DNA from: Candidatus Aminicenantota bacterium
Lineage (GTDB): Bacteria > Acidobacteriota > Aminicenantia > Aminicenantales > UBA4085
Reading direction: 5' to 3'
NCBI GenBank assembly: GCA_022866045.1
Contig: JALHTW010000230.1
Span: forward strand, 1-58,582
Length of the DNA: 58,582 nucleotides
Position numbers and translations under genes: made by a program. The notes beneath the pieces were generated by a model. It was not told the DNA's origin. It saw only the letters and a program-made list of their open reading frames with translations, and did no database searches. Shown piece after piece: positions 31,544 to 39,812 of this stretch (its first letter is position 1; each line of letters begins with the position of its first letter).

Positions 31544-31591
31544 AAGGCGAAGGGGTCATAGCCTCATTTTTTATGGTCGTTTAAATCTTAA

Positions 31592-31745
31592 GCAATTCTT
31601 TTCCCGGTATCAGGCCAGTTTCGGGTAGGGTCCTGTCGCGGCTCTTCCCCGGCCGTGCTCGCGGCCGGGCCGCTCCGCGCGGGCGGGGAGCCCCTTCGCC
31701 GCGCCACCCTGGCTCGACTTTCCGGCGCCCCGGAAAAAGAATTGC
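31592..31745 (+). repeat. MITE-like 154-bp inverted-repeat element, copy 1
   Basis: This element is 154 bp long and bounded by terminal inverted repeats: GCAATTCTTTTCCCGG at the left and CCGGAAAAAGAATTGC at the right, with one mismatch. Its interior is very GC-rich and holds a perfect 8-bp hairpin (CCCGGCCG/CGGCCGGG) and a second larger stem. A second copy of the same length and about 94% identity lies at 39615-39768 in reverse orientation. It occupies half of the 308-base gap between rplQ and the lipoprotein gene; the rest of the gap shows no gene. It encodes nothing recognisable. Confidence 0.85.
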
Positions 31746-31851
31746 CTGCGCTTAGATCCCATGTTTTGAGGTTTTAAAAAACCGCGCGTGGATCATTCCA
31801 TGATACAATCCATTCCTTCTCAACATCGTTTATGGGAAAATAAGAGAGTTG

Positions 31852-32313
31852 ATGAGAAAGCATGATTTTCCGTTCGCAGCTTTTGCCATATTTATCCTAA
31901 CCCTCGTCTTGATGTCCGGGTGCCTCCGGTTCAGACTGCTCTCCCTAGACGAACCAACAGTCGTTTTTGAGCGTGTCGTTTTCTGCGCCTCTCTCGACCA
32001 GAAGAAGGGCTGGGCTGAGCCCATCGGGGAAAAGGCTCTCTTTATAAAAGGGGTAGATTCAAACGTCTATTCCTTCCTCAATCTCAGAGACCTTCATGGG
32101 GTGCACTCCCTCTTTTGGAAATGGTATGCTCCCTCGCGCCGGCTATACCGCGTCACAGACAAGATCTCGGTGGGTGAAGAGGGGAAAATCTTTGAACGAT
32201 ATATCGCTTGGGATATGATCTATATCTCCGAAGACAAAGAAAGCGGCGCGTGGACTGTCGCCGTCTTCATGGACGATAAGGTGATCGCGGTCAAAGACTT
32301 CGAGATAAAATAA
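31852..32313 (+). CDS. Small lipoprotein of unknown function
   Basis: The 153-residue protein begins MRKHDFPF, followed by a hydrophobic stretch and a lipobox (LMSGC), so it is probably a membrane-anchored lipoprotein. The mature part contains VFERVVFCASLDQKKGWAEP and a later HSLFWKWYAPSRRLYRV segment. The arrangement of this WYxPxxxxY segment followed by a hydrophobic C-terminal strand loosely recalls DUF2914 domains, but I would not assign it. It stands alone between two opposite-facing units. Confidence 0.85.
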   Translation: MRKHDFPFAAFAIFILTLVLMSGCLRFRLLSLDEPTVVFERVVFCASLDQKKGWAEPIGEKALFIKGVDSNVYSFLNLRDLHGVHSLFWKWYAPSRRLYRVTDKISVGEEGKIFERYIAWDMIYISEDKESGAWTVAVFMDDKVIAVKDFEIK

Positions 32314-32340
32314 ATTGAGGACGCAATTTCCTGTGCCCCA

Positions 32341-32372
32341 GGGACAGGGTAGTGTCGTCCCCTTATAATTTT
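32341..32372 (+). terminator. Weak hairpin between convergent genes
   Basis: A five-base stem GGGAC/GTCCC with an 11-base loop is followed after a few bases by a T-rich tract (TTATAATTTTT). It lies between the lipoprotein gene and the convergent transglycosylase gene. It may end transcription of the lipoprotein gene, and it also resembles the GGGAC-type palindromes seen elsewhere in the window. Confidence 0.4.
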
Positions 32373-32376
32373 TCTT

Positions 32377-33822
32377 TCAGCCCCGGCCTGGGATCCTCAA
32401 CCGCTGTCCAATCCGGATCAAATAGGGATTCTTGATTCCGTTCAGCTTGACGATTGCCTGGACCGAAGTGCGGTATTTGGCCGCGATCTGGGACAAGGTT
32501 TCTCCTGCCCGGACCACGTGCACGGAAGGTTCGGCAGGGACGAATTTAGGGAGGCTGCTGATGATCTGGAGGGTCTTTTCACCATAACCGACCGGCACGC
32601 GGAGCGAATATTCGTGGTCGGGCGTAGAATCTTGCCGCAGTTCAGGGTTGAGATAGGACAGCTCCGAGCTTTCGAGCCCGAGCGCCACGGAGAGTGTCGC
32701 CAGCTTGGTCGGATGGTTGATAGTGATCGTCTCGAATTTGAGGGGCGGGTACGGCGTCGGCAGAGTGAAGCCGTATTTCTCGGGGTTCTTGATGATGAGC
32801 ACGGTCCCGATAAACCGGGGGACGAAACGCGCCGTTTCATAAGGAAGCCTTCTAAAGAGGTCCCAGAAGTTGTCCAGATAATTGACCTTCTGGGTGTTGA
32901 TGACGTTCTGGACGCGCATTTCGCCGCAGTTGTAGGCCGCCAGGGCGGTCGTCCAATCGCCGAAGAAGGAATGGAGCTCGTCGAGATATTTGATGGCTGC
33001 TTGCGTCGCCTTGTAGGGGTCCATGCGCTCGTCCACGAAACGGTCCTGGGTCAGGCCGTACCGGTAACCCGTGGAGCGCATGAATTGCCACATGCCCATT
33101 GCCCGGGCCCGGGACAGCGCCCGGGCCTGATACCAGCTTTCGATGACCGGCAGCCAGCACAATTCTTCGGGGAGGCCGGCTTTCCTGAGTTCCTCCTGGA
33201 TCCAGTCCTTGTAAAGTCCTGCTCTCTGGTAGGCGGCTTCGAAAGTCTTCCGCTCGCTGCCCTTGAACAGTTCGATCTCCCGGCGGACAAACTCGTTCTC
33301 GACCAGGGGGATGGATTTTCCATTGCCCTTGATCGGGTTGCGGCCTGAGGCGTTGATTTCCAGGATGCGCTGGGCGATCAGAAGCCGCAGGTCGTTCTTT
33401 TCCTGAAGGAGGGGAGAATCCGCTGGCAGATCGACTTTCAAAATGATCTTATAGGCATCATCCAGTGCCTTGAGAGCCGCATTCATGTCGCCGCGTTCCC
33501 AGGCGAGCTTCGCCTCCTGATAGACCATGAGGGCTTCCTCGAGCAGGGCAGAGGGTTCGTCTTTTTCCAAGTTGGCGGCTTTCTGCTGGAGGGCCGTTTC
33601 TTCTTCTACGGCTTTTTTCTCTTCAGGGGGGATGATAGTCTTGGCTTCAGCGGCTCTATTCTCCTGAGGCTGCGTCGTCTGGGGAGGGGTGGATTGCGGC
33701 GCCGGCTGTTCGAGGACGGTTTTTTGGGGAGTTTGCGTCGGCTTGGGGCCGGATGAACAGCCCCAAAGGAAGACGGCCAGGAGCGCACATATGAGGATCC
33801 GGCCTTTTGTAGTTGTCTGCAT
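32377..33822 (-). CDS. MltD-like lytic transglycosylase lipoprotein with LysM
   Basis: This is a membrane-bound murein hydrolase that would cleave glycan strands non-hydrolytically. The 481-residue protein has a lipobox (FLWGCSS), a proline- and glutamine-rich linker to about residue 60, and a helical region. The SLT domain follows, with catalytic E228 in [16 protein letters not shown] and the [11 protein letters not shown] motif. After a spacer there is one C-terminal LysM domain ([18 protein letters not shown] ... [10 protein letters not shown]). E. coli MltD has similar order. A strong promoter lies so close that the leader is about eight bases with no clear Shine-Dalgarno. Confidence 0.93.
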
Positions 33823-33836
33823 GATTAAAAGAGATA

Positions 33837-33865
33837 CTTATACCATGCGGGAAAGGATGAGTCAA
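33837..33865 (-). promoter_or_regulatory. Promoter of the transglycosylase gene
   Basis: On the minus strand TTGACT and TATAAG are separated by 17 bp. The predicted start of transcription is about eight bases before the ATG. The 27-bp inverted repeat begins 12 bases upstream of the -35. Confidence 0.7.
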
Positions 33866-33877
33866 CCATGTCAAAAA

Positions 33878-34185
33878 GGGTCGCGTCTACACTTTCCACT
33901 TTTTTGTCTCGACTGGGAATATCGGACTCCGTTCGCGTTGAGTCTTATAGAATCTTATTAAACTCAAAAGGCGAGTCGAGTGCCCAGAGGCTTTTTATCA
34001 TGTCACGTTGAGAGGAAACCAAAAACAACGGATTGTTCTCGCCGACCGCGATAGGTCCGTCCTTCGTCAGGAAGATTTTTCGACAGATGAAAGAAAATCT
34101 TGCCTAGAATTACATCCTGCAAGGCGCTGTCCAGGAGATCGAAAAATCCCTCTCTGAGAAAAAGTGGAAAGTGTAGACGCGACCC
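33878..34185. repeat. 27-bp perfect inverted repeat enclosing about 250 bp
   Basis: The word GGGTCGCGTCTACACTTTCC plus ACTTTTT (33878-33904) is repeated exactly in reverse complement at 34159-34185. Together the arms bound a segment with no intact gene, which fills most of the 375-base gap between the transglycosylase gene and galE. The right arm contains the stop codon of a decayed reading frame. The structure resembles the ends of a REP-associated or other small mobile unit. Confidence 0.8.
34012..34176 (+). pseudogene. Possible decayed C-terminal coding remnant
   Basis: One frame reads like the tail of a helical DNA-binding protein: FVRKIFRQMKENLA, an in-frame TAG, then NYILQGAVQEIEKSLSEKKW and a stop inside the right arm of the 27-bp repeat. 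I see no start or upstream domain. C-terminal helix-turn-helix tails of this style occur in some REP-associated transposases, which would fit the flanking repeat. The evidence is only compositional and positional. Confidence 0.3.
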
Positions 34186-34197
34186 CGTGTTTAGAGC

Positions 34198-35166
34198 TTA
34201 TTTCCGGTGCCAGCGCCAGGCGGTCTCGATGATGGTCTCGATTTCGGAGTTCCGGAGCTTCCAGCCGAGCAGGCGCTCGGCCTTGTCTTTGGAGGCGAGG
34301 AGCACCGGCACATCGCCTTCCCGCTTGGGCATTTCCCGAACCGGGACCTTCTTTCCGGTGATCTTTTCAGCCCGGGCGATGACCTCCTTGACGGAATATC
34401 CCCGGTTAGTTCCCAGATTGATGAATTCGCTCCGCGGGGAGGCCATGAGCTTCTGGAGGGCCAGGACATGGGCATTCGCCAGGTCCGTGACATGGATATA
34501 ATCCCGAATGGCTGTCCCGTCCGGCGTGGGGAAGTCCGTGCCGAATATGTCCAGGTTTTCCTTTCTCCCGAGAACAGAGAGAAGAATATTGGGTATGAGG
34601 TGGGTTTCCGGGTCGTGGCATTCGCCCATCTCGCCGTCCGGATCTGCGCCCGAGGCGTTGAAATACCGGAGGGAGATGAATTTGAGCTTGTAGGCCCGGT
34701 CATAGTCCTGGAGGATCCGTTCCACAAAGAATTTCGTCTGGCCGTAGGGATTGAAGGGGTCGAGCGGATGGTCCTCCGGGATCGGGATCTGCTTCGGGAT
34801 GCCGTACACGGCTGCGCTTGAGGAAAAAATGAAATTCCTGACCCCGGCTTCAAGCATTTCATCGAGAAGGTTCAGGCTCGATGTCAGGTTCTGGGTGTAA
34901 TATTTCCGGGGATGGATATAGGATTCGCTGACCTGGATGAGGGACGCGAAATGGAGAACGGCGGCGATATTTTGCGATTTGAACGCGCTCCGAATATCGT
35001 CTTTTACCTCGAGGTCGCCGACGATGAGCTCCGCGTCCCGGACGAATTCTCGCCTTCCGGTCGATAAATTATCAAAAACAACGACGTCAAAACCCTGTTT
35101 TCGAAGCTCTTTGACGGTGTGAGAGCCGATATACCCCGCCCCGCCAGCCACCAGGATCTTGCTCAT
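34198..35166 (-). CDS. galE: UDP-glucose 4-epimerase
   Basis: GalE interconverts UDP-glucose and UDP-galactose for glycan synthesis. The 322-residue short-chain dehydrogenase-type protein has the NAD-binding motif GGAGYIG (8-14) and the serine triad SSS at 115-117. The catalytic pair Y141xxxK145 is in NPYGQTKFF, and RYFNASGADPDGEMGE lies in the substrate region. Length is near the usual 330. The ATG overlaps the stop of the upstream cca gene, so the two form an operon. Confidence 0.95.
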   Translation of the reverse strand: MSKILVAGGAGYIGSHTVKELRKQGFDVVVFDNLSTGRREFVRDAELIVGDLEVKDDIRSAFKSQNIAAVLHFASLIQVSESYIHPRKYYTQNLTSSLNLLDEMLEAGVRNFIFSSSAAVYGIPKQIPIPEDHPLDPFNPYGQTKFFVERILQDYDRAYKLKFISLRYFNASGADPDGEMGECHDPETHLIPNILLSVLGRKENLDIFGTDFPTPDGTAIRDYIHVTDLANAHVLALQKLMASPRSEFINLGTNRGYSVKEVIARAEKITGKKVPVREMPKREGDVPVLLASKDKAERLLGWKLRNSEIETIIETAWRWHRK

Positions 35167-36605
35167 GATGCCTCGGCCATCAGCTTCCTCGCGAGTCTAA
35201 GCCCCTGGGCTTTGGTTTCAAACTCGTTGTCCAACTGACGTTTATAGATCTCGCTCAATATTTTCCCCATGTCCGGCCCCGGCTCAACTCCCAGCTTGAT
35301 CAGGTCCCTCCCCATAATGAGAGGTTTGATCGTCTCCTTGTTGACGCGGAGCTCCTCGAATTTCCTGAGCAGCCACTTTCCCTCCCGGTCCAGGCTTTTG
35401 ATAGGCCGTTCCCTCCGCCCGCCGCGGTCCGCGGCATCAAGATACGCGAGGAGCTCGATCTCGCCGTCCGTGTCCGCCGCCAGCTTGTTGAACGCCTTCC
35501 GGGTGACGGTGTCGCGGTTCAGCCACAGCTCCGCGGCCCGGTGATGGGTTTTGATCAGCATGAGCGCGGTCTTCCGGAGGGGATAGCCGTTCCAGGAGAA
35601 AATCTTGAACCGGCCGAAAATCTTCCTCGCGAGCCGCTCGCTGGCGCCGTCGTGGCCGGCGCTGGTGATCACCATCCGGCCCCGCTTGAACTCCCACTGG
35701 GTCGTCTCCGATTTCCCGACGTCGTGATACAGGGCCGCCAGGAGAAGAGCCAGTGTTTTGGCCGGCTCGAGCTTGAACAACACGGAGAGACGGCGCGCCT
35801 GGTCCACCGCCAGTTTGGTGTGGTGCCAGACCGTATGGTGGCCGAAATCATCTTTTTCGGGATGAAAAACCGAATCCTGGATGATGAGGGTCAGGGCATA
35901 GAGCTCGGGAAAGAGCTGGCGCAGCGCGCCTAATTTAAAGAGCTCCTCGAGCCCCAGGGACGGGCGCTCGGAAAAAAGAAGGATTTTGAAGACCTCTTCG
36001 TTGACGCGTTCGATGCTGAGGCGGGTAAGGTCGATGTTTTTCGCGAGCTCGTATGTCGAGGCGTCCACGGCAAAGCCGAGGACCGAGGCGAAGCGGGCCG
36101 CCCTGAGGACTCTGAGCGGGTCCTCGGGAAACGCTTTCGGGTTCGTCACGCGGATGAGCTTGGCCCGGATGTCTGCGGCGCCGTCGAACGGGTCGACGAG
36201 CTTCCCGTCCGCGAGGCGCAAGGCAATGCTGTTCAACCGGAAGTCCCGTCGTTCGAGATCTTCCTTGATGGGGAGGTAGGGGTTGGCGGATACCAGGATG
36301 TCCTTGTGGCCGCGCGCCCCTTCGCCCTTGGGCCGGTCCTTGCGGGGCAGGGCGACGTCGTAAGATTTCCCTTTGATCGTGAACTTCACGATCCCGAAGC
36401 TTTTCCCGACGAGGTCCACCTTGCCGAAAGGCTCGATCTTGGCCACGATATCCTGGAGCGGGCGCCGGGTGATGAGGATGTCCACGTCCTCGGAATGGAT
36501 GCCCCGGAGCCAGTCCCGGACGAAGCCGCCGACGGCATAGACGTCTTTGCCGAAAAGCTTGACAAAGAGCTTTTTGTCGCAGAAATCGGCCTCCAGATTT
36601 CTCAT
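35163..36605 (-). CDS. cca: CCA tRNA nucleotidyltransferase with HD domain
   Basis: This enzyme adds the 3' CCA to tRNAs; at least the tRNA-Trp here needs it. The start at 36605 (MRNLEADFCDKK) is chosen because the promoter -10 lies only 16 bases upstream, so a longer reading would begin outside the transcript. The 480-residue protein has the class II nucleotidyltransferase head with GG (26-27) and DVD (40-42), RRDFRLNSIAL, and the neck RVLRAARFAS. An HD domain (ALYHDVGKSETT) follows. The family includes poly(A) polymerases, so the CCA role is likely but not proved. Confidence 0.92.
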   Translation of the reverse strand: MRNLEADFCDKKLFVKLFGKDVYAVGGFVRDWLRGIHSEDVDILITRRPLQDIVAKIEPFGKVDLVGKSFGIVKFTIKGKSYDVALPRKDRPKGEGARGHKDILVSANPYLPIKEDLERRDFRLNSIALRLADGKLVDPFDGAADIRAKLIRVTNPKAFPEDPLRVLRAARFASVLGFAVDASTYELAKNIDLTRLSIERVNEEVFKILLFSERPSLGLEELFKLGALRQLFPELYALTLIIQDSVFHPEKDDFGHHTVWHHTKLAVDQARRLSVLFKLEPAKTLALLLAALYHDVGKSETTQWEFKRGRMVITSAGHDGASERLARKIFGRFKIFSWNGYPLRKTALMLIKTHHRAAELWLNRDTVTRKAFNKLAADTDGEIELLAYLDAADRGGRRERPIKSLDREGKWLLRKFEELRVNKETIKPLIMGRDLIKLGVEPGPDMGKILSEIYKRQLDNEFETKAQGLRLARKLMAEAS

Positions 36606-36621
36606 GGGTTCCACGGGCTTA

Positions 36622-36650
36622 ATTATAGGAACTGCAGGGGCCAAGTGCAA
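36622..36650 (-). promoter_or_regulatory. Promoter of cca-galE
   Basis: On the minus strand TTGCAC and a perfect TATAAT are separated by 17 bp. The predicted transcription start is about ten bases before the cca ATG. It decides the cca start and implies a very short leader. Confidence 0.75.
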
Positions 36651-36725
36651 TTTTTATTTTAAATGCGAGATCGGCCTGTACTCATGACCTCCCTTAGGCC
36701 TTTAATGACAAATGCTCATGTTCGT

Positions 36726-36754
36726 TTGACCCCGCTGCGGCCTTGGTGTAAACT
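36726..36754 (+). promoter_or_regulatory. Promoter of the LEA14-like gene
   Basis: TTGACC and TAAACT are separated by 17 bp. The predicted leader is about 23 bases and contains an AAAGGA ribosome-binding sequence. This promoter diverges from the cca promoter in the same gap. Confidence 0.55.
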
Positions 36755-36783
36755 GTGAGATTCAAAATAAATAAAGGAACTTT

Positions 36784-37635
36784 GTGGTGAAGAAGGCAAT
36801 TCTTGTTGCGGCCCTGGTGAGTGCGTGGGCCGTTGTCGCGGGCTTTGCGGCATCCTCCCAAAAATATGATGTCGAGATCTCTCTCCGGGAGAAGAAGATC
36901 CTTGACCTCACGCCGGAGGGCCTCTCCCTCGTTTTTCACCTCGACATATACAACACGTTGTCCGCGCCTCTGTTTCTCACCAAATATGACTATCGGGTCG
37001 TGATCAATGAGACGGAATACCTGAACCTTAAGACGTCGCTGGATGAGCCCATCAGGGTCGAACCCAAAAGCGGACTTCTCATCGCCCTGCCGGTCAAGGT
37101 TACGTATGAATATCTTTTTCAGACGGTGCCTGATGTCCGGACAAAAGACCAGGCAGCCTGCTTTCTCATCGGCGGTATCGTTTTTCAGGACGAAAAGAAG
37201 AAAGAGAAGAGGGTTCCGGTCGCCTTTTCCGGCGATCTTCCCATCTACCGCGAGCTCGAGATGCGAATCCTGCCGGTTGAGGCCAAGGACCTGACCATCG
37301 GCGGGGCAAACCTCGTTTTCAAGGCCGCGCTGAAGAACCCGAACGGATTTTCCTTTAAAATCGATCGAGTAACCTACAGACTGGATTTCGTGGGCAAGAC
37401 CGTATCCGAAGGGGCTGTCGGACAGGGGATTGCCGTGGAGAGCCGGGGCGAAAGAGCCTTCGCCATTCCTCTGCTTTTGGACTTTTTCGAGGTCGGCAAA
37501 GCCGTCTACGACGGCCTGGAACAGCCGCCCGTGGCTGTGCACTTCTCGGGCGAAGTCGAGGTCAGCTCCCTATGGGGGAGTTTCACGATCCCCTTCAATA
37601 AAAGCGATAAAGTCGCCGTTCAGAAGATCTCTTGA
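36784..37635 (+). CDS. Exported LEA type 2 (LEA14-like) protein
   Basis: The 283-residue protein begins at GTG (a second GTG follows). Its N-terminal signal peptide has a hydrophobic core about 5-22 and likely cleavage near FAASS. The mature part appears to hold two similar beta-rich repeats. Each has the LEA14/WHy pattern, in which a hydrophobic strand ends in a polar N-P-N or similar turn (FHLDIYNTLSAPLFL; FKAALKNPNGFSFKI). Such domains are seen in exported bacterial proteins of unclear role. I assign the fold but not a function. Confidence 0.85.
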   Translation: MVKKAILVAALVSAWAVVAGFAASSQKYDVEISLREKKILDLTPEGLSLVFHLDIYNTLSAPLFLTKYDYRVVINETEYLNLKTSLDEPIRVEPKSGLLIALPVKVTYEYLFQTVPDVRTKDQAACFLIGGIVFQDEKKKEKRVPVAFSGDLPIYRELEMRILPVEAKDLTIGGANLVFKAALKNPNGFSFKIDRVTYRLDFVGKTVSEGAVGQGIAVESRGERAFAIPLLLDFFEVGKAVYDGLEQPPVAVHFSGEVEVSSLWGSFTIPFNKSDKVAVQKIS

Positions 37636-37778
37636 TCAGCGTCATCATTTCCACCTGCTGGGGATATTCGACAAGGTCTTGTTTCTCTGTTTCCTGGGCC
37701 TCTCCGCAGCGGCTTTATGAAGCGAAAGAATCAGGCCGAAGTGGAAAAATATTCAGCGATCATCGAGAAATATAAAAC

Positions 37779-37819
37779 GGCGTCTGACCCCGGCCTTTTT
37801 AAGGGAAGGCGTCAGAGCC
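37779..37819. terminator. Hairpin between convergent genes
   Basis: GGC-g-TCTGAC pairs with GTCAGA-GCC (nine pairs with one bulge) around a loop containing CTTTTTAAGG. It overlaps the stop codon of the convergent beta-barrel gene. It could end transcription from both sides. The GTCTGACCCC word is also of the kind found in dispersed intergenic repeats. The preceding 140 bases after the LEA14-like gene hold no convincing gene. Confidence 0.5.
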
Positions 37820-38597
37820 AATAATTGATCCCCAGCGAGAATTGATAGCTGCCGATGTCGAAGGGGCCGAAGCCATGGAACGAACTGGTGAGCTTGCCTT
37901 TGGCGTTGCTATATTTAAATTCGAAGTCGATCGTCAGCCTGTTCGCCACAGGGATCATAAGCCCACCGAAGACGTGGTAGCCGAAGCTGATTTTCCCGAA
38001 GTTCTCGCCTTCCAGGACATCTACCTGGTAGATCGGATAGCCCGTTATATTGTTGCCGCTGAGGTCCGCAAAGTCTTCACCACCGCTAAAATCAATGATA
38101 TCGCCCTGCATGCGGATACTCCAGAGATAAAGCCCCGCGCCGGCGCCGACATAGGGAATCAATTTATTTCGCCGGCCGAATGGAGCGATCTTGATAGAGA
38201 GCTGGGCCGGCGTGATCGAAATGTTCAGGCGGTGCATAGGCGCGAAATCGCCTTGGTAAGCATTGGGAAACGCCCAGTTGCCGCTATCCAATTGAATGCC
38301 GACATAATTTTTATAGTATCCAGATTTGTTCTTACTGAAGGTGTCGAGGCCGAACACGAGGCTGAACTCCTGGGTCAGGAGATATTCGTAGGCGAAGCCG
38401 AACGAGGTGTCCTGGAAATTTGATTTCGTATAATTCATATTTTCGAATTCGCTCGTCCAGAGACTATCCGGCCAGCCGGGACCGCTTTGAGCGCGGGGAA
38501 TGAAGTAATTCACTTTGAATGAAACGATGTTCGAATAGCCCAGCGCGGCGACCGTCAAGAAGACGATCATCGCGGCGAGAATTTTCTTTTTCACCAT
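37812..38597 (-). CDS. Outer-membrane beta-barrel protein (paralogue A)
   Basis: The 261-residue protein has a signal peptide (MVKKKILAAMIVFLTVAALG, likely cut after YS). It is followed by alternating aromatic strands and ends in the aromatic-rich strand SLGINYWL, typical of barrel proteins recognised by BamA. The segment SIKIAPFGRRNKLIPYVGAGAG is shared with its upstream neighbour, so the pair is a tandem duplication. The fold is like small OmpW/OmpA-type barrels. No ligand can be inferred. Confidence 0.88.
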   Translation of the reverse strand: MVKKKILAAMIVFLTVAALGYSNIVSFKVNYFIPRAQSGPGWPDSLWTSEFENMNYTKSNFQDTSFGFAYEYLLTQEFSLVFGLDTFSKNKSGYYKNYVGIQLDSGNWAFPNAYQGDFAPMHRLNISITPAQLSIKIAPFGRRNKLIPYVGAGAGLYLWSIRMQGDIIDFSGGEDFADLSGNNITGYPIYQVDVLEGENFGKISFGYHVFGGLMIPVANRLTIDFEFKYSNAKGKLTSSFHGFGPFDIGSYQFSLGINYWL

Positions 38598-38640
38598 CCG
38601 ACTCCTGCGTTTGCGATTTTTAAATTATGAGGCCAGGTTT

Positions 38641-39441
38641 TCAGAACCAATAATTGAGTCCCAGAGAGATATGATAACCGCCGAGGTCAAAGGGAGCGAA
38701 GCCTTCGAATCCCTCGGTGAACTTGCCCTTGGCCATGTTGTATTTGAACCCGATGTCGAGCGTCAACGCGTTGGTCAAGGAAAACATGAAGCCGCCGAGA
38801 ACATGATAGCCAAAGCTGACCTTCCCGAGGTTCTCCCCTTCCCGGGCATCCACCGCGTAGATTGGATAGACCGGCAGTTCGTCTCCTTGGGTGGTTTCAT
38901 AGACGTATTCGTCGTCGAAGTCGATCATATCGCCATACATCCGGACGCTCCAGAAATACACCCCCACGCCGGCGCCGACATAGGGAATGAGCTTGTTCCG
39001 CCGGCCGAACGGAGCGATTTTCAGCGAAAGCTGGACCGGCGTGATCGAAATGTCCAGGTTGTGACCGGTTGAAAATGTGTCCACATCCATATATTTATCA
39101 TATTGGGAGAGGACTGCCCACCATTCATTGTCCAACTCAAAACCGACATAATCCCTGTAGAGCCCAGAATTATTCTTGTGGTAAAACGCGTCGATGGAGA
39201 ACTCAAGGCTGAACGCCCGCGTGAGGAAATATTCATAGGAAAGTCCCAGCGACATTCCTTGGAAATGTGATTTGGCGAAGTCCATGTTGTCGAACTCGAT
39301 GGTCCATAAGCTGTCCTGCCAGCTCGGACCGCTTTGGGCGCGCGGGATGAAGTAATTCATTTTAAGAGAAAAGGTATTCGAATAGCCCAGGGCCGAAATC
39401 ACGAACAAGGCTGTCAGTGCCAATGCGATCTTCTTTTTCAT
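38641..39441 (-). CDS. Outer-membrane beta-barrel protein (paralogue B)
   Basis: The 266-residue paralogue of the next gene has signal peptide MKKKIALALTALFVISALGY and a mature start FSLKMNYFIPRAQSGP that nearly matches its neighbour. It ends SLGLNYWF, with the terminal phenylalanine characteristic of barrels. It differs mainly in an acidic loop (DFDDEYVYETTQGDELP) and in the loop containing YDKYMDVDTF, so the surface-exposed parts have diverged most. The gap to paralogue A is 43 bases, so they are probably co-transcribed. Confidence 0.88.
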   Translation of the reverse strand: MKKKIALALTALFVISALGYSNTFSLKMNYFIPRAQSGPSWQDSLWTIEFDNMDFAKSHFQGMSLGLSYEYFLTRAFSLEFSIDAFYHKNNSGLYRDYVGFELDNEWWAVLSQYDKYMDVDTFSTGHNLDISITPVQLSLKIAPFGRRNKLIPYVGAGVGVYFWSVRMYGDMIDFDDEYVYETTQGDELPVYPIYAVDAREGENLGKVSFGYHVLGGFMFSLTNALTLDIGFKYNMAKGKFTEGFEGFAPFDLGGYHISLGLNYWF

Positions 39442-39614
39442 CGTCTTTCTCCTTCACTTGTTTTTATGCAAAAACTATGCCAAATTGCGAGGCCGAATAT
39501 CCAGGCAGCCGGACCAGGGAGATGTGGCGAAAAGGGGTCAATTGTCCTCTTTCCAGGCAGTCCCAGTCCATTAGTTTAAACCGCCCTCCAGCGCTTGTAA
39601 AGCAGCGATGATTA

Positions 39615-39768
39615 GCAATTCTTTTTCCGGGGCGCCGGAGAGTCGAGCAGGGGTGGCGCGGCGAAGGGGCTCCCCGCCCGCGCGGAGCGGCCTGGCCGCG
39701 AGCACGGCCGGGGAAGAGCCGCGACAGGACCCCGCCCGAAATTGGCCTGACACCGGAAAAAGAATTGC
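39615..39768 (-). repeat. MITE-like 154-bp inverted-repeat element, copy 2
   Basis: This is the reverse-oriented partner of the element at 31592-31745, of identical length with about nine differences. Its terminal inverted repeats GCAATTCTTTTTCCGG are perfect over 16 bp. It is flanked by TTA on both sides, a possible three-base target duplication. It lies in the 399-base gap between paralogue B and tsaC. Apart from it and the tsaC promoter I see nothing else in that gap. Confidence 0.85.
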
Positions 39769-39783
39769 TTACGCATGCCATGT

Positions 39784-39812
39784 TTGACTTTTTACGGGCC
39801 TCTTCTTACTAT
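39784..39812 (+). promoter_or_regulatory. Promoter of tsaC
   Basis: TTGACT and TACTAT are separated by 17 bp, starting 16 bases after the MITE-like element ends. The -10 is only a 4/6 match. A GGAGG-containing leader follows. Confidence 0.5.

Follow-up and report, generated by a model that had tools for sequence, protein, structure and literature searches.

A MITE-like element family with a conserved, putatively RNA-like structured core in Candidatus Aminicenantota

Two inverted copies of a short repeat

The window, by which we mean the whole stretch of 58,582 nucleotides that was analysed (contig JALHTW010000230.1 of a Candidatus Aminicenantota bacterium), carries two inverted copies of a short repeat. 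Copy 1 lies in the intergenic region after rplQ, within the gene order rpoA-rplQ-SLT/LysM-epimerase-pcnB; copy 2 lies within the order Omp-yrdC-metG and ends 11 bp before a promoter-like site. A first-pass annotation had placed the repeats at 31592-31745 and 39615-39768 and described them as 154 bp each, 94% identical, inverted, and bounded by 16-bp terminal inverted repeats (TIRs), all of which we confirmed. Comparing copies moves the TIR boundary 4 bases further out on each side. The original coordinates therefore stand as the inner part of a 162-bp element with TIRs of about 20 bp, whose ends are GTAAGCAATTCTTTTTCCGG and CCGGAAAAAGAATTGCTTAC. The outer left bases of copy 2 have diverged to ATTA from the consensus GTAA. 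The features discussed below are:

31579..31587, no strand: left target-site duplication of copy 1, GTTTAAATC, 7/9 identical to 31750-31758
31588..31749, plus strand: copy 1, whole element, 162 bp, with imperfect TIRs of about 20 bp at 31588-31607 and 31730-31749
31627..31710, RNA-like strand minus: structured core of copy 1, 87.6 bits with model R1, strand assigned by G-U/A-C asymmetry
31750..31758, no strand: right target-site duplication of copy 1, GCTTAGATC, from the same flank comparison
39611..39772, minus strand: copy 2, whole element, 162 bp, with TIRs at 39611-39630 and 39753-39772
39650..39733, RNA-like strand plus: structured core of copy 2, 87.8 bits with model R1
39784..39812, plus strand: promoter-like site TTGACT-17-TACTAT upstream of the Sua5/YrdC gene, in a segment alignable in G007 and G008

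A dispersed family that duplicates 9 bp of target DNA

The element is short, non-coding and bounded by TIRs, and many copies are dispersed through its genome. A search of the 3.28-Mb, 365-contig assembly returned at least 40 full, dispersed copies with E below 1e-50. Searching for the terminal repeat itself, as the first-pass annotation had proposed, found the 16-bp end at 124 sites with up to 2 mismatches, compared with 5 sites for a reversed control pattern. Variant forms of 140-143 bp, 234 bp and 347-356 bp also occur, in which the middle is shortened, replaced or interrupted. The exact 16-bp end was found in none of the 11 other genomes of the taxonomic family. A TIR 18-mer gave 30 scattered single sites in GTDB genomes, none with a close facing partner, which we take to be chance matches, and none in viral contigs or plasmids.

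We compared the 9-bp flanks of 43 TIR-bounded elements from the window's genome. On average 6.72 of 9 positions were identical, compared with 2.42 when partners were permuted; the highest of 2000 permutations reached 3.37, and identity was at least 7/9 in 31 of the 43. Since the flanks match in exactly one register and width (width 9, zero offset), we regard the element as a MITE-like non-autonomous DNA transposon that makes 9-bp target duplications. The TTA beside copy 2, noted earlier on both of its sides, belongs to the outer TIR bases (ATTAGC... / ...GCTTAC), so reading it as a target duplication is wrong; the true duplication is 9 bp. The flanks of copy 2 match at just 3/9 positions when ungapped, and its duplication is not recognisable without a gap.

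Nested insertions provide a further view of movement. On contig C202, a second element with ends ATAAGCATTTCC and GGAAATGCTCCC is nested between two perfect copies of GGTGTCAGG, and the uninterrupted target sequence, known from other copies, serves as an internal empty site. A 352-bp composite element has an 8/9 target duplication, and a 347-bp form (L062, C180:5357-5703) has a perfect one, TCCTCTTGT, so these enlarged elements probably still move.

Several of the variants have features of their own. The 347-bp form, also seen at L069, contains a third module with several GC-rich hairpins. Another nested element (ACGCATTAATTA...) lies inside MITEs of the window's type at L053, L061, L070, L074 and L076; it has a second GC-rich hairpin (GGAACCAGTCCCGTCGGTTCCCCCCGTCGG...), which is also found within a different arm pair at L024, L059, L073 and L077. 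At L072 (C295:21158 onward) there is a half element, with a lone left end, a tRNA-like sequence about 85 bp downstream and no right end.

Orthologous sites in a relative

Genome G007 belongs to the same family and another genus. It conserves the order and orientation of both rpoA-rplQ-SLT/LysM-epimerase-pcnB and Omp-yrdC-metG, and the element is missing from each of its two orthologous intergenic regions. Diverged flanks blur the base-exact junction, and around copy 2 both flanks can be aligned to relatives. The comparison of occupied and empty sites that had been called for gave two regions without the element in G007, besides the internal empty site from nested insertions. Together with the copy number, the 20-bp TIRs and the 9-bp duplications, these sites and the nested insertions bear out the description of the repeats as MITE-like.

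The suggestion that the inverted pair might allow inversion of the 8-kb segment between them found no support: gene order and orientation are the same in the relatives tested, so there is no sign of this inversion in the sequenced genome. An ORF-based test of gene orientation around the copies was set aside as too crude, having missed rplQ beside copy 1.

Directly after rplQ, in the intergenic region that holds copy 1 in the window, G008 has a core within a 10-bp palindrome (L183). In its sister G007 just CGCTTTTATGGGTCCT stands after rplQ (L253), a state that would suit either loss of the hairpin or a site that it had yet to reach.

Search for a transposase

A transposase gene with the same ends was sought in the draft genome (365 contigs), and none was found between a TIR pair among the matches listed. 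The genome holds one PF01609 fragment and one PF00872 fragment, neither with the element's ends, and both families were rejected as partners on the few loci found, which lack these ends. Short multi-copy insertion sequences are often missing from fragmented drafts, and the absence is therefore weak evidence. Several transposase families make 9-bp duplications, so we name none. The earlier proposal of mobilisation in trans is favoured by the same evidence that marks the element as a MITE; its transposase partner is the part for which no gene with these ends was found.

On contig C364, one TIR pair spans 1665 bp around an M55-like peptidase gene (family assigned by eye). We rejected it as a transposon: its flanks match at only 4/9 positions, and it therefore resembles two broken elements. 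In G008, a transposase-like gene (by eye, DDE type) adjoins the SLT/LysM gene, in the intergenic region corresponding to that of copy 1 (L254; C79, bases 1-900).

The core is more widely distributed than the ends

When the order was searched at the DNA level, other genomes yielded the GC-rich middle of the element but not its ends. This core is 84 nt long in the window; in relatives its length is about 100 nt. A covariance model made from 13 cores matched 29 of the order's 93 genomes, spread over families f1, f2, f4, f5, f6 and f7, and six further genomes of the phylum outside the order. The window's own genome has at least 48 matches, G086 at least 44, and G090 and G093 18-21. On the RNA-like strand the near-invariant parts are GGGUGG at the start, GCGAGGACGG inside and GACAGGACCC at the end. 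In G086 (C11, C14, C10 and C15) and G089 (C17), some cores stand in close pairs 147-148 or 291-293 bp apart, an arrangement that differs from the dispersed copies of the window's genome.

In G090 and G093, from another family of the order, the core lies within elements whose ends are NNNNGCATCTCCRTTTCYGTGATG (the GCATCTC type), plausibly diverged relatives of the window's ends. The 9-bp flanks of 13 such elements are identical at 6.23 of 9 positions, compared with 2.47 when permuted, in the same geometry, and three have perfect duplications (CCACCAAAA, CCCGGAACC and CGGTTCCTC at L238, L243 and L245). Target-site duplication is thus found in the window's genome (9 bp) and in relatives. The arms around the core show no evident relationship to these ends in G007/G008, G019, G022 and one genome from a different class; which arms correspond to transposon ends is established, like the target duplications, only for the window's type and the GCATCTC type. 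As the core is spread more widely than the ends, it is the more lasting part: either different transposon ends have each acquired it, or the ends are just fast-evolving.

Rfam 15 has no family that matches at the gathering threshold, either in a scan of the window or in permissive scans of the element and its relatives, which gave weak sub-threshold matches only. VA RNA and Acido-1, the known RNAs that came up, lie far below threshold and were rejected, as was an HDV-like ribozyme, prompted by eye from a UCCUCGC-like loop, which has no Rfam support. Of the papers listed by a literature search with the core sequence, none was related.

Fold and strand of the core

Among 37 distinct cores, 23 pairs are formed in 96.7% of cells, and 11 of the 23 show two-sided change. 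The covariation score is 0.311, and none of 500 shuffles reaches any of the five measures, in controls that leave sequence relatedness in place. When the partner is slid by 1-3 columns, pairing falls to 33-47%, a contrast that partly answers the question of relatedness, with a structure derived from the same alignment. In the second helix, 35 distinct arm pairs have 5.31 of 6 Watson-Crick pairs, compared with 4.02 when permuted (highest 4.57). Compensatory changes thus exceed those in the controls, as in a conserved structured RNA.

G-U pairs number 67 and A-C pairs 6 on the strand that begins GGGUGGC, and the two counts change places on the other strand. A duplex or cruciform would not distinguish strands, so this asymmetry points to a single strand, most simply RNA, although single-stranded DNA of one polarity could take its place. 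The core may therefore act as RNA from one strand.

The first-pass annotation had called the core GC-rich and strongly structured. The first part is correct; as to the second, the whole element as DNA folds only moderately better than shuffles (z -2.9) and the isolated core of the window's type no better than shuffles, and the structure is supported by the comparative evidence.

Interpretation and alternatives

We consider it very probable that each copy is a non-autonomous, MITE-like DNA transposon carrying a conserved, structured core that is RNA-like and putatively functions as RNA. Our best reading of the core, from sequence comparison, is that it represents an undescribed structured RNA within a MITE family. 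A DDE-type transposase supplied in trans would cut at the ends and, with a 9-bp stagger, insert the element; the transposase gene has presumably been lost or is missing from the fragmented draft. The core could act as RNA, on the strand GGGUGGC...GACAGGACCC, within host read-through transcripts, and might have been kept for its benefit to the element: it could make insertions tolerable through transcript termination, shielding or processing, or it could play a part in transposition. A more far-reaching version is speculative, and we incline against it: a selfish or symbiotic RNA domain would be constant throughout the phylum, with transposon ends as a replaceable vehicle exchanged between lineages, and the RNA perhaps aiding transposition or making insertions harmless.

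An unlikely alternative is that mobility or selection really belongs to the core itself, the ends being secondary: a small hairpin would have become embedded again and again in different inverted-repeat arms. It would explain why the same core sits in unrelated-looking arms (G007/G008, G019, G022, G086 and G121), why a core occurs in the 10-bp palindrome of G008, and why complementarity between the bases that directly border the core is more frequent than after permutation. However, TIRs or a longer RNA stem would also produce that complementarity, the unit that duplicates its target in G000, G090 and G093 is the whole TIR element, and no enzyme linked to the core was found.

Slightly less likely still is a plain MITE, an internally deleted insertion sequence whose functionless GC-rich middle is copied passively. 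TIRs and 9-bp duplications fully account for mobility on this account, and the shortened, replaced or interrupted middles of the 140-143, 234 and 347-356 bp forms agree with it. Passive filler should, however, diverge faster than transposase-bound ends, and here the core is conserved more widely than the ends, with compensatory changes over genera and families. Covariation on the scale of the phylum thus already speaks against this reading.

It is very improbable that the inverted pair forms an invertible 8-kb switch: two 162-bp inverted copies with 94% identity could recombine, but they are two of at least 40 dispersed ones, and the genes beside both are ordered and oriented identically in their relatives.

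The two remaining ideas we find barely credible. For a REP-type element mobilised by a RAYT (Y1/TnpA-REP) transposase speaks the presence of RAYT genes in 75 of the order's 94 genomes, with three such genes in the window's genome. None of the RAYT loci checked has the core motif nearby, so copies flanking a Y1 transposase gene were not seen, and REPs are not known to make 9-bp target duplications. A conserved structured RNA gene at fixed loci, which the first-pass annotation had named as the finding that would overturn it, fits the structure and conservation of the core but not its location: dozens of copies, with target duplications, occupy unrelated sites, and G007 has no element at the orthologous positions.

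Relation to known elements

The usual view takes bacterial MITEs for decayed insertion sequences with a spare interior. Here the interior is the best-conserved part, a one-stranded fold constrained across many genera and present in dozens of copies per genome. If the core acts as RNA, a ready-made regulatory or processing element lies scattered beside many genes in these bacteria; if it helps transposition, an RNA component has been added to a DNA transposon.

MITEAba12 of Acinetobacter is likewise small and non-autonomous, has TIRs, makes 9-bp target duplications and is moved in trans; it is 113 bp long and shares IS5/IS903-type ends (GGCTTTGTTGCACAAA-like) with the resident ISAba12 (PMC6382973). 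In our element, by contrast, the ends are unrelated by eye, no parent insertion sequence is seen, and a conserved structured element makes up the interior. Correia/NEMIS and ERIC/RU repeats resemble it in their size of 100-200 bp, their TIRs and the stem-loop fold of their transcripts, for which RNase III cutting has been proposed in NEMIS; they have TA at their ends and an A+T-rich make-up (reviewed in PMC2229807), whereas our element has a 9-bp duplication and a GC-rich core, and its interior is conserved and covaries throughout the phylum, with ends that vary from lineage to lineage. REP/BIME palindromes with RAYT are similarly GC-rich, intergenic and high-copy (compare PMC3733652); TIRs, 9-bp target duplications and the lack of RAYT association set our element apart. 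With the structured RNAs of Rfam 15 it shares a conserved fold with compensatory changes and differs in matching no family at threshold.

Other features in the window

Between the SLT/LysM and epimerase genes, a 308-bp insert (33878-34185) has 27-bp perfect inverted ends (GGGTCGCGTCTACACTTTCCACTTTTT) and no visible target duplication; the corresponding spacer is much shorter in G007, G008 and G002. The insert may be a decayed insertion sequence. Two related outer-membrane-protein genes stand in tandem at 37812-38597 and 38641-39441, with DNA stretches that are 72-82% identical, and the second of them has a weak match to the Opacity porin family.
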